Of a DNA stretch of 53,491 bases, positions 22,307 to 42,172 are shown in pieces. The position numbers and the translations under genes are program-made. The stretch comes from Acidobacteria bacterium RIFCSPLOWO2_12_FULL_66_21 (GTDB lineage Bacteria > Acidobacteriota > Vicinamibacteria > Vicinamibacterales > 2-12-FULL-66-21), in assembly GCA_001767455.1 (NCBI GenBank), contig MELC01000091.1, forward strand, positions 148,119 through 201,609, read 5' to 3'. Positions within the stretch are counted from its first letter, which is position 1. Each line of letters opens with the position of its first letter. The notes beneath the pieces are model-generated. The model did not search any database, had not been told where the DNA came from, and saw only the letters and a list, made by a program, of their open reading frames with translations.

Positions 22307-22350
22307 CCGAGCTCACGGGGCGAGCGGAGCGCACGAAGCAAAGATCCTTT

Positions 22351-22610
22351 ACACGGAGACACGGAGCTCACTGAGACGCACGGAGGGCTGGCCGGTCTGG
22401 CCGCGCTCGCGCGCGGTGAGGTGATCTGAGATCCACAGATGCAAACACGCTCCTTGGCGTGCTTGCATCTGCGGATCTCAGATCACCTCGGACGTCGGCC
22501 GTGGGCGGCAGACGGCCGACGCCGACCGGCCACGACCGACGAGCCCCGAGCCACGAGCGACGAGCGGCCGGGCTTCCCCGTGCGTCTCCGTGCCCTCAGT
22601 GTCTCCGTGT
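22351..22610. repeat. Long imperfect palindrome with CACGGAG arms (copy A)
   Basis: The left arm (22351-22387, ACACGGAGACACGGAG and more) is complementary with few mismatches to the right arm (22576-22610, CTCCGTG units ending GTGTGATC). Between them lies structured element A (22390-22531), followed by a short GAGCCACGAGCGACGAGC stretch. The whole is a MITE-like palindrome without an ORF. Confidence 0.75.
22390..22531. ncRNA. Four-helix structured element, copy A
   Basis: By eye this 142-nt stretch folds into four helices. The closing stem is GGCCGGTC with GACCGGCC (22390-22397, 22524-22531). A small hairpin is CCGCGC-TCGC-GCGCGG (22401-22416). The main hairpin 22418-22489 has 17+9+5 bp separated by A-C mismatches at 22435/22472 and 22445/22462, with a 6-nt loop. 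The last hairpin is 22493-22502 with 22512-22521 (10 bp). Copy B at 32750-32896 keeps the same layout. It may act as RNA, as cruciform DNA, or as a mobile repeat; the strand is unknown because the shape is nearly symmetric. Confidence 0.6.
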
Positions 22611-22756
22611 GATCGTCTCGGTGTCATCGTCTCCGCGCCCTCCGGGCCTGAGGGTTCTCCGTGACCTCCCTGCCGGGATTCCGGCGTCTCTGCTCATTAT
22701 TGGCACAACTTCCGCGTATCTCCGTCGACCGGATCGGGAATGCGGCGTGCAAGCGC

Positions 22757-22888
22757 GACCACGGAATTCACGGAATCACAACCACCGAAGACCACCGAAT
22801 TCACGGAATCACATAACCACGGAAGAACACGGAATTCACGGAGTTACAACACGCAATCACAACGACGGAGGGCACGGAATCACACGGA
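22757..22888. repeat. Degenerate CACGGAA-type tandem units
   Basis: Repeated ACCACGGAATTCACGGAATCACA-like units (broken up by CACCGAAG and CACGGAAGAACACGGAATTC variants) run from 22757 to 22888. Only one orientation is present, so no hairpin forms. It appears to be a half-element of the CACGGAA type. Confidence 0.6.
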
Positions 22889-22900
22889 TGTGCTGTGTGG

Positions 22901-22929
22901 TTACCAGGCCGGCGCGCCGACTGTATAAT
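22901..22929 (+). promoter_or_regulatory. Promoter for icd
   Basis: TTACCA (22901-22906) and TATAAT (22924-22929) are spaced 17 bp. This predicts transcription from about 22936 and a 5' leader of about 180 nt before icd. Confidence 0.65.
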
Positions 22930-22946
22930 GTCCCGTTCTCATCGAC

Positions 22947-23108
22947 ATGAAGCGCACACTGGGAGCGTCACGTGCGCGCACCACGATGGTGCAAACCGCT
23001 CGAAACTGCGGATTGACGCGGTACGAAGCGCCAACGGCGTCCGATTTCCACAAGCTTTTCCACAGGAACTGTGAAGATCGCCGCGCGCCGGACGGTGATG
23101 TGACCTAA
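22947..23108 (+). CDS. Possible 53-codon leader ORF upstream of icd
   Basis: An ORF starts at ATG 22947, just after the predicted start site of transcription, and ends at TAA 23106-23108, eight bases before the icd ATG. It encodes a basic peptide ([20 protein letters not shown]...). It has no clear ribosome binding site and no recognised family. It could be a leader peptide or chance. Confidence 0.25.
23044..23064 (+). repeat. Two TTTCCACA direct repeats (DnaA-box-like)
   Basis: ATTTCCACA (23044-23052) and TTTTCCACA (23056-23064) are direct repeats 12 bp apart in the icd leader. They resemble DnaA boxes (TTATCCACA), but only two are present, with no AT-rich region and no replication gene, so an origin is not supported. 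They could be regulatory sites. Confidence 0.35.
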
Positions 23109-23116
23109 TCCTCCTT

Positions 23117-32634: not shown

Positions 32635-32638
32635 AAGG

Positions 32639-32970
32639 CACGGAGCGGACGGAGCGCACAGAGACGATCACACGGAGGCGCGGAGCACACGGCGACGCAC
32701 GGGGACGATCACACGGAGGCACGGAGCACACGGAGACGCGCGGAGACGAGGCCGGTCTGGCCGCGCTCCGCGCGGTGAGGTGGTCTGAGATCCACAAACG
32801 CAAACACCGGTCGATCCCACGGTGCTTGCGTTTGCGGATCTCAGACCACCTCGTAACGCCGGCCAACGGCAGGCCATGGCCGGCGCCAGACCGGCCTTCT
32901 CGTCCGGGCGTGACCGCCTCCGTGCGTCTCCGTGGGCTCCGTGTCTCCGTGTCGAGGCGCCTCCGTGACC
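32639..32970. repeat. Long imperfect palindrome with CACGGAG arms (copy B)
   Basis: Left units (CACGGAGCGGACGGAGCGCA and further CACGGAGG/CACGGAGA units, to 32748) oppose right units CTCCGTG from 32930 to 32967. Structured element B lies between them. The left array is about twice as long as in copy A, with an internal ACGATCACACGGAG repeat. Confidence 0.75.
32750..32896. ncRNA. Four-helix structured element, copy B
   Basis: The layout matches copy A. The closing stem is GGCCGGTCTGG with CCAGACCGGCC (32750-32760, 32886-32896, 11 bp). The small hairpin is CCGCGC-TCC-GCGCGG (32761-32775). The main hairpin 32777-32852 has 17+9+5 bp with A-C mismatches at 32794/32835 and 32804/32825 and a 10-nt loop. 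The last hairpin is CGCCGGCC with GGCCGGCG (32857-32864, 32878-32885). Both copies carry CGGCAG in the last loop. Function unknown. Confidence 0.6.
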
Positions 32971-32975
32971 TCCTT

Positions 32976-32984
32976 TGCTATAAT
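32976..32984 (+). promoter_or_regulatory. Extended -10 promoter upstream of korA
   Basis: TGC-TATAAT is a perfect extended -10 motif, 69 bases before korA. No -35 match is evident, as allowed for extended -10 promoters. Confidence 0.55.
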
Positions 32985-41227: not shown

Positions 41228-41332
41228 AACACGGAAGGACACGGAAGACACGGAATTCATGAACCACGGAAGCACACGGAAACACACGGACTAGTTTCTG
41301 TGTGTTCCGTGGTTTTCCGTGTTTTTCCGTGT
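41222..41332. repeat. CACGGAA / TTCCGTG palindrome between convergent genes
   Basis: Units ACACGGAAGGACACGGAAGA to about 41290 face GTGTGTTCCGTGGTTTTCCG and TTTTTCCGTG on the right, with only CTAGTT at the centre. It starts inside the EF-hand gene end and covers the last 14 codons of the convergent TPR-like gene. Confidence 0.75.
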
Positions 41333-42172
41333 TTCGAGGAAGACCGCGAGCTCGCGGTTGTCGGGGAAATCGAGCGCGAGCGCTCGAGCGGACTCGGTCG
41401 CCCGGATCATGTCGTGTTCGCGGACCTGCATGTCCCACAGCCCGAATCCGGCTTCGGCGTGGCTGAAGAAATCCGAATCGATCCGCTCGGCGCTGCGCAT
41501 GGTCGCGAGCGCCCGTTTCTTGCTGCCGCCGCCGAGCACCCATCGCGTGCCCCACGGCATCTTCGTGTTGACGATGTAGTCGATCCAGGCGCGCGCGACG
41601 AGCGCCCGGACGTGCCGCGGGTGCTTCTTGAGGACCGCGTCGAGCGAACGCCTCGCCTCCCAGTACTCGTCCCACCCGGTCTTGTGTCCCAGCGGCCCGA
41701 GCTGCAGCCAGACGTAATTCAGATTGAGCTTGCCAAGGAAGAATAGCGCAGCCTCATCGCCTGGATTGGCCTTGAGGCTCGCGCGCGCGAGCGTCTGGCC
41801 GTGCCGGACGTCGGCGAAGAAGGCCGCCATCAGCGCAGGACAGGCCGCGCATAGCCTGAGCGCTTTTTTCTTGTCGGCGTCCTTCCGGTCGGCGTCCTTG
41901 TCCGAGGGGCGCTCGAGCAGTCCCTTGAGCTGAAAGAGCAGCGCGGAGGTGCGCAGCTCGTCGTTGGCAAGGTCCTGTCCCTGCGACGCCCGCAGTTCCA
42001 GGGTCAGCGCCGCGGCCGCCTCGTAGCGGGCGTTGTAGAACAGACGTTGCGCGTCCGTGAAGGTCTGCTGCGCGATCGGCACCCCCGCGCGCCCGATCCC
42101 TGACGGGACAGGCGCCGCCGCCGGCGCGACGATCAGTCCCAGCCCGACGGCAAGGGCCCACATATGATGCAT
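41291..42172 (-). CDS. Exported TPR-like protein of unknown function
   Basis: The protein is 293 aa from ATG 42172, with a signal peptide or anchor (WALAVGLGLIVAPAAA). The rest is helical with TPR-like pairs (AQRLFYNARYEAAAALTLEL, NPGDEAALFFLGKLNLNYVW), a Lys/Asp-rich loop and RLCAACPALMAAFF with two Cys. No enzyme motif is seen. The last 14 residues (ETRKNTENHGTHRN) are translated simple repeat, so the original C-terminus was replaced or extended. It is divergent from blaI and is transcribed from across the blaI promoter region. Confidence 0.65.
   Translation of the reverse strand: MHHMWALAVGLGLIVAPAAAPVPSGIGRAGVPIAQQTFTDAQRLFYNARYEAAAALTLELRASQGQDLANDELRTSALLFQLKGLLERPSDKDADRKDADKKKALRLCAACPALMAAFFADVRHGQTLARASLKANPGDEAALFFLGKLNLNYVWLQLGPLGHKTGWDEYWEARRSLDAVLKKHPRHVRALVARAWIDYIVNTKMPWGTRWVLGGGSKKRALATMRSAERIDSDFFSHAEAGFGLWDMQVREHDMIRATESARALALDFPDNRELAVFLETRKNTENHGTHRN

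Follow-up and report, generated by a model that had tools for sequence, protein, structure and literature searches.

The two structured elements of the window, by which we mean the whole 53,491-nt stretch of DNA that was analysed, belong to a dispersed repeat family that is real and large. The reading that we favour, with a probability of roughly 0.6, is that the family represents non-autonomous, dispersed and structure-defined mobile DNA of about 340 bp, the arms of which are homogenised by template switching or the DNA fold of which is selected, through a mechanism that we infer in part. The unit is gene-less; its core, made up of one closing stem and three hairpins, is flanked by two inverted arms, and the fold of the unit and the length of its main hairpin (P3) are kept while the letters of the stems change in matched pairs. 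The covarying arms are probably matched at the DNA level and not for an RNA. Covariation commonly passes for all but proof that an RNA is structured; in this family it spans tens of copies and nothing indicates that pairing is selected on one particular strand, so that the family lends itself to efforts to separate selection on RNA from homogenisation of DNA.

In the initial annotation it was proposed that two four-helix elements lie 10 kb apart in the window. Both proved to be real, and together they are a small sample of the 49 places at which the family was found in this genome. The core of each (22391-22531 in copy A, 32751-32895 in copy B) consists of a closing stem P1, a short hairpin P2, with a stem of 7 bp in copy A and 6 bp in copy B, the main hairpin P3, with 33-nt arms that are 94% complementary in both copies, and a terminal hairpin P4, and in both the structure continues outward into ACGGAG/CTCCGT arms. 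The parts are as follows.

22351-22383, + strand: left outer arm of copy A, with ACGGAG motifs, 88% complementary to 22578-22610
22391-22397, + strand: 5' side of P1 of copy A, predicted from the fold of the core, pairing with 22524-22530
22400-22417, + strand: predicted short hairpin P2 of copy A, of the CCGCGC..GCGCGG type, conserved in sequence across the family
22418-22489, + strand: main hairpin P3 of copy A, with two A.C mismatches, from the fold and arm complementarity
22490-22523, + strand: predicted terminal hairpin P4 of copy A, from the fold
22578-22610, + strand: right outer arm of copy A, with CTCCGT motifs, from complementarity to the left arm
32635-32978, + strand: whole gained unit of copy B, approximate, from the sucD stop codon to the TATAAT before korA, absent in nine of nine syntenic relatives
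32670-32712: additional left array of copy B
32711-32748, + strand: left outer arm of copy B, 89% complementary to 32915-32952
32751-32760, + strand: 5' side of P1 of copy B, predicted from the fold, pairing with 32886-32895
32761-32775, + strand: predicted short hairpin P2 of copy B, from the fold
32777-32852, + strand: main hairpin P3 of copy B, with two A.C mismatches as in copy A, from the fold and arm complementarity
32857-32885, + strand: predicted terminal hairpin P4 of copy B, from the fold
32915-32952, + strand: right outer arm of copy B, from complementarity to the left arm

The four-stem fold first drawn for the two copies was confirmed, with minimum free energies of -120.9 and -124.3 kcal/mol and z values of -10.76 and -12.92 for copies A and B, respectively, and none of 200 dinucleotide shuffles of either copy folded equally well. 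Reading of both sequences likewise verified the five compensated P3 pairs that distinguish the copies and the two A.C mismatches kept at shared positions.

A blastn search of the same genome gave 56 matches; 34 places beyond the window copies were inspected, and full cores, including those of the window, numbered 25. The covariance model built from these cores yielded 82 hits on both strands of this genome, which were merged to 49 places comprising 25 group A copies, 18 copies with P3 in the diverged group B, and 6 in which P3 is absent or shortened, the main hairpin being present at 43 of the 49. Group A cores are 134-156 nt long and have four stems. The CGGCAG of the last loop, which had been listed as a shared feature, occurs in the P4 part of 4 of the 25 group A copies and is not family-wide. 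In one group B copy (L085) P4 has collapsed, and in L031-L033, L036-L038, L086, L087 and L166 P3 is lost with P1, P2, P4 and the arms mostly kept. From their sequence, the losses in L031 and L035 look like deletions between short direct repeats, an outcome to be expected where palindromes are extruded as DNA. The outer arms carry ACGGAG- or ACGAAG-type motifs in this genome. A score of 14 or more was reached by 69 of 74 copies, in which the arms are on average 81% complementary over about 60 aligned positions; shuffled arms reached a score of 19 at most. Searching this genome for the arm pattern returned further degenerate or arm-only copies (11 regions taken, 10 folded). A simple ACGGAA-type arm hairpin devoid of a core is found in a spacer at 41228-41333 of the window, and a second arm-only hairpin, L167, is longer and nearly perfect. 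At L025 (C72:21675) the element is truncated inside P3 and runs into GCAGCCCT-type repeats.

It had been expected that related genomes would hold further copies with compensated changes, and such copies were found by the covariance-model search. At least 7 of 60 relatives, at least 11 of 193 genomes of the class and at least 2 of 396 sampled genomes of the phylum (this genome and another member of its order) gave matches, this genome being counted each time; these tallies are lower bounds, since the candidates scored per genome were limited to 53, 16 and 8, respectively, and the model was built on group A. Many of the relatives are fragmented assemblies. All carrier genomes fall within one order. 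With hits merged, the model placed 23 copies in G004 and 7 in G002, both of other genera, two in G106, and one each in G003, G006, G011, G036, G117, G124 and G157. Two of the G004 copies, L049 and L052 (C38:128890 and 129364), stand in tandem at a spacing of 474 bp. In the cores of other genera and families the same stems recur, written in quite different letters, and P3 measures 74-80 nt in 68 of 74 copies drawn from several genera. A distant blastn search with the copy B unit as sole query gave no match in phages and plasmids, nor did viral contigs match one exact pattern. No earlier account of the repeat family was found in the open-access literature searched.

The initial annotation read the compensated changes as a sign of selection or repair on structure, and the covariation is far above both shuffled and slid controls (RNAalifold; 25-copy table). 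Among the 25 aligned copies both sides have changed at 25 of 50 pairs, compared with 9.3 in shuffles and 5-10 in slid versions, pairing cells amount to 96.4% compared with 89.3, and the covariation score is 0.236 compared with 0.096. None of 500 shuffles reached any of the five measures, a result that is not to be taken as a probability, because the copies share kinship and the shuffle control, like the Fisher and binomial values given below, overstates their independence. Double transversions, which cannot go via G.U, account for 25 of the 91 both-sided cells (cells, not events). Copy pairs with a flank divergence below 0.13 (8 pairs) show 1.1 compensated and 1.75 single differences per approximately 27 pairs, and those at 0.22-0.26 (228 pairs) show 3.6 and 2.05, in a comparison that covers copy pairs with a flank divergence up to 0.26 and in which individual copies recur in many pairs. 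Both-sided differences that leave pairing unrestored number 0.25-0.69 per pair of copies. Since single differences stay flat while compensated ones rise, single changes are either lost or converted to paired ones.

It could be argued that the family is a structured RNA, such as a 3' UTR element, a terminator-like RNA or a small RNA, of which the RNA fold is selected. The very strong covariation and the conserved four-stem fold are what such an RNA would show, and none of the 77 places scored lies inside a called gene (simple codon-usage gene caller). However, if an RNA fold were selected, G.U would be expected above A.C on the transcribed strand, and in P3 the mismatches are 54 G.T, 50 A.C and 37 other with the CAARC site excluded (p 0.77) and 78, 67 and 37 with it included (p 0.41), counted in 74 copies after L056 (a duplicate), L101 and L102 were dropped, with L045, which is close to a contig end, also excluded. 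Thus, neither strand shows tolerance of G.U, in a test that stands without a positive control, the tRNA set having been too small and mis-registered (7 tRNAs; 4 G.T, 2 A.C). In the outer arms G.T is not clearly above A.C either (185 and 163, p 0.26), and 479 of the 827 mismatches are neither, which indicates that the outer arms are not homogenised like P3. A balance of G.T and A.C could also be expected if copies decay neutrally after insertion, with an RNA or DNA fold selected in active copies alone.

Orientation points the same way. Copies are found in codirectional, convergent and divergent spacers (41, 20 and 14 of the 75 distinct places in several genomes for which genes were called on both sides, one duplicate having been removed and one place being undetermined), compared with 53, 11 and 20 of 84 element-free spacers of at least 50 nt at loci of this genome (p 0.09); divergent spacers are not avoided, and convergent spacers are at most mildly overrepresented. 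In the accessible text of a survey of REP sequences, frequent GT pairs and a bias to uni- and convergent spacers were taken as signs of transcription (PMC3733652), and neither sign is clear in these repeats. At the gathering score the sole Rfam match in the window is a tRNA elsewhere in it. A permissive search with copy B returned MIR2600 on the minus strand over P3 (E 3.3e-6, 37.7 bits where the gathering score is 98) and weaker matches, all of which were taken as generic long-hairpin matches below the gathering score. Of the readings that the initial annotation had left open, that of a non-autonomous mobile or dispersed repeat is supported, and the structured RNA is disfavoured by the balance of G.T and A.C, the lack of a clear orientation bias and the lack of an Rfam match, so that we regard it as unlikely; selection or repair on structure, which had been called the natural reading, is partly supported, with DNA favoured over RNA.

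Comparison of syntenic loci, which had been suggested as a check on presence and absence, showed the site of copy B to be empty in nine of nine relatives and about 340 bp to have been gained. The gap between sucD and korA is 422 nt in this genome, where it holds copy B, and 10-152 nt (tblastn ends) in all nine relatives in which the genes are adjacent, the sequences of which read without the element; 11 relatives were searched, two of them having no sucD match, and a second match in G001, at a contig end, was unreadable. In G003 the TATAAT follows the sucD stop codon almost directly and in this genome 344 nt lie between the two, so that the arms were gained along with the core. The relatives are too diverged for a target-site duplication to be read at sucD-korA. 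This is the one clean empty site obtained, three other sites having yielded none. In neither of two relatives with a full-length match at copy A, upstream of icd, and in none of six at L010, upstream of a radA-like gene, was the neighbouring gene of this genome present; both sites are therefore synteny breakpoints and uninformative on gain. When a G004 copy was searched as DNA in nine genomes, none had both flanks together among the matches listed. The closest copy pairs align over approximately 300-410 bp, arms included, and then diverge, and the closest separate copies of this genome are about 88-89% identical; the best 45 pairs, on which both values are based, give no sign of recent transposition.

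Gene order differs from that of relatives at the element in two of the three sites compared across genera (22307-23116 of the window and 2654-3216 of L010), possibly through recombination at the repeats or by chance. Adjoining copy A, at 22770-22880, is a one-sided array of CACGGAATTC-type motifs that has no matching inverted array. The leader before icd (approximately 22920-23110) holds a TATAAT, a hairpin GCACCA..TGGTGC and TTTTCCACA motifs, is conserved in G010 and G011 (L134, L135), and is a possible regulatory leader, the tRNA being the only Rfam match in the window.

Rather than being mobile, the repeats may be a chromosomal DNA element, for instance a cruciform with a gyrase, nucleoid or terminator function, of which the DNA fold is selected and the spread is incidental. 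Strand symmetry, intergenic location and the fixed dimensions of P3 are consistent with such a role, but the distribution is patchy, with matches in at least 11 of 193 genomes of the class and at least 2 of 396 of the phylum, relatives lack the element at sucD-korA, and several degenerate copies persist without P3. We consider this reading improbable.

Like the repeats described here, REP or REPIN sequences, for which mobilisation by RAYT (Y1 tyrosine transposase) proteins has been proposed, are palindromic, intergenic, multi-copy and structure-defined. Three Y1_Tnp matches were found in this genome, and 10 of the 12 family genomes have one. However, G002, which carries 7 copies and is 93% complete, has no Y1_Tnp match, and the Y1_Tnp genes of this genome adjoin other repeats: arrays of another palindrome, GCAGCCCT..AGGGCTGC, enclose two of them, and GGGGTCAGACCCC-type sequence lies beside the third, this element being absent within about 1.5 kb on each side of the three, so that no Y1 gene flanked by the repeat was seen at these loci. 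The Y1 transposase genes between GCAGCCCT..AGGGCTGC copies are those of L105 (about 1165-1395 and 1960-2170) and L106 (about 1275-1335 and 1875-2120), and by their sequence these loci may be REPtron-like units that belong to another repeat family; the gene of L106 has an internal stop. No autonomous partner was found by the arm pattern in this genome. A long-spaced pair of arms at C86:195676 and 199004 was considered as an autonomous version and rejected, since the sequence that they enclose reads, as we take it, as a permease-type gene and the pair looks like a broken copy.

REPs are described as intergenic palindromes that occur in many copies and have alternative but complementary residues in their stems, and the transposase proposed to mobilise them would process single-stranded DNA in its folded form (PMC3733652, PMC8266576, PMC3116915). 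Published REP families, as far as the text of the survey at hand goes, are palindromes of 20-40 bp with a GTAG or CGTC tag, in which GT pairs are frequent and which lie mainly in uni- and convergent spacers (PMC3733652); with cores of 134-156 nt and a shared unit of about 300-410 bp, the present repeats fall outside that length, and their mobilisation by a RAYT is in our opinion very unlikely. That the family is a mutational by-product alone, its arm hairpins grown and reshaped by template switching or slippage with neither mobility nor function, is hardly credible, for although arm-only hairpins without a core exist (41228-41333 of the window; L167), the set of stems and the length of P3 recur across genera and families and sister copies share approximately 300-400 bp at unrelated sites.

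The tip of P3 bears on how the arms of the mobile unit might be matched. Near it, in the CAARC motif, one pair is mismatched in 24 of the 25 group A copies, as A.C in 14, G.T in 9 and A.G in one, the remaining copy having G-C. When copies were sorted by tip type, the base after the stem at the loop was G or C in ratios of 8:4 and 1:8 (Fisher p 0.024) and the base before it in ratios of 9:3 and 0:5 (Fisher p 0.009), other bases being left out in both cases. As A.C and G.T are one duplex in opposite readings, and the loop-closing bases switch along with them, the tip is present in both orientations. Arm homogenisation and spacer inversion are, in the accessible text, stated results of template switching (PMC8604942), and for RNA genes loop inversions and multibase compensatory changes have been discussed, to the extent that the text is available (PMC8794818). 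Both features are seen in the present family, namely homogenisation of the P3 arms, including changes impossible via G.U, and linked tip markers in both directions, the copies being non-independent. That P3 keeps to a fixed length hints at selection in addition to template switching.

Under the favoured reading of mobile DNA, P3 would form as a DNA hairpin and a polymerase switching template would copy one arm off the other, which we infer to be the main cause of the matched changes. Such copying would turn single changes into paired ones, would be blind to G.T versus A.C, and would sometimes invert the tip. The folded DNA, either a single-stranded hairpin on the lagging strand or a cruciform, may be the unit that a mobilising enzyme recognises; if the enzyme recognises the fold, geometry rather than sequence would be kept, and the element may move as folded single-stranded DNA. 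A more far-reaching and tentative proposal, doubtful at present, is that the family exemplifies bacterial mobile DNA of a class whose defining trait is a four-stem fold of the single strand and not its sequence, moved by a non-RAYT enzyme not yet recognised, with stems that are rewritten pairwise by template switching and so mimic RNA covariation. In this family one could look for a mobility system that recognises structure and does not belong to the RAYT group.

Miniature inverted-repeat transposable elements (MITEs) are short, gene-less, dispersed and intergenic and have inverted arms. The present repeats are likewise short, gene-less, multi-copy and intergenic, with inverted, partly complementary arms and unit ends that are approximate; they differ in that the arms are imperfect (mean 81%) and the inner P3 is better kept than the arms. 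The attC sites of integrons are single imperfect hairpins, in which structure and not sequence is conserved in the folded single strand. A possible likeness to attC is that structure is kept over sequence, the difference being one hairpin in attC and four stems in these repeats.

With REP or REPIN sequences and their RAYTs the family has in common the intergenic, multi-copy palindromes and the alternative complementary stem residues, whereas REPs are 20-40 bp, tagged and often show GT pairs, and the present repeats are about 340 bp with four stems and arms and with G.T about equal to A.C; a further difference is the one carrier genome (G002) that has no Y1_Tnp match. Quasi-palindromes formed by template switching share arm homogenisation and spacer inversion with the family (PMC8604942, PMC8794818). 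The precedents given in the accessible text of those studies are yeast coding genes and rRNA and microRNA genes, and the same process is proposed here for dispersed bacterial repeats, in tens of copies.
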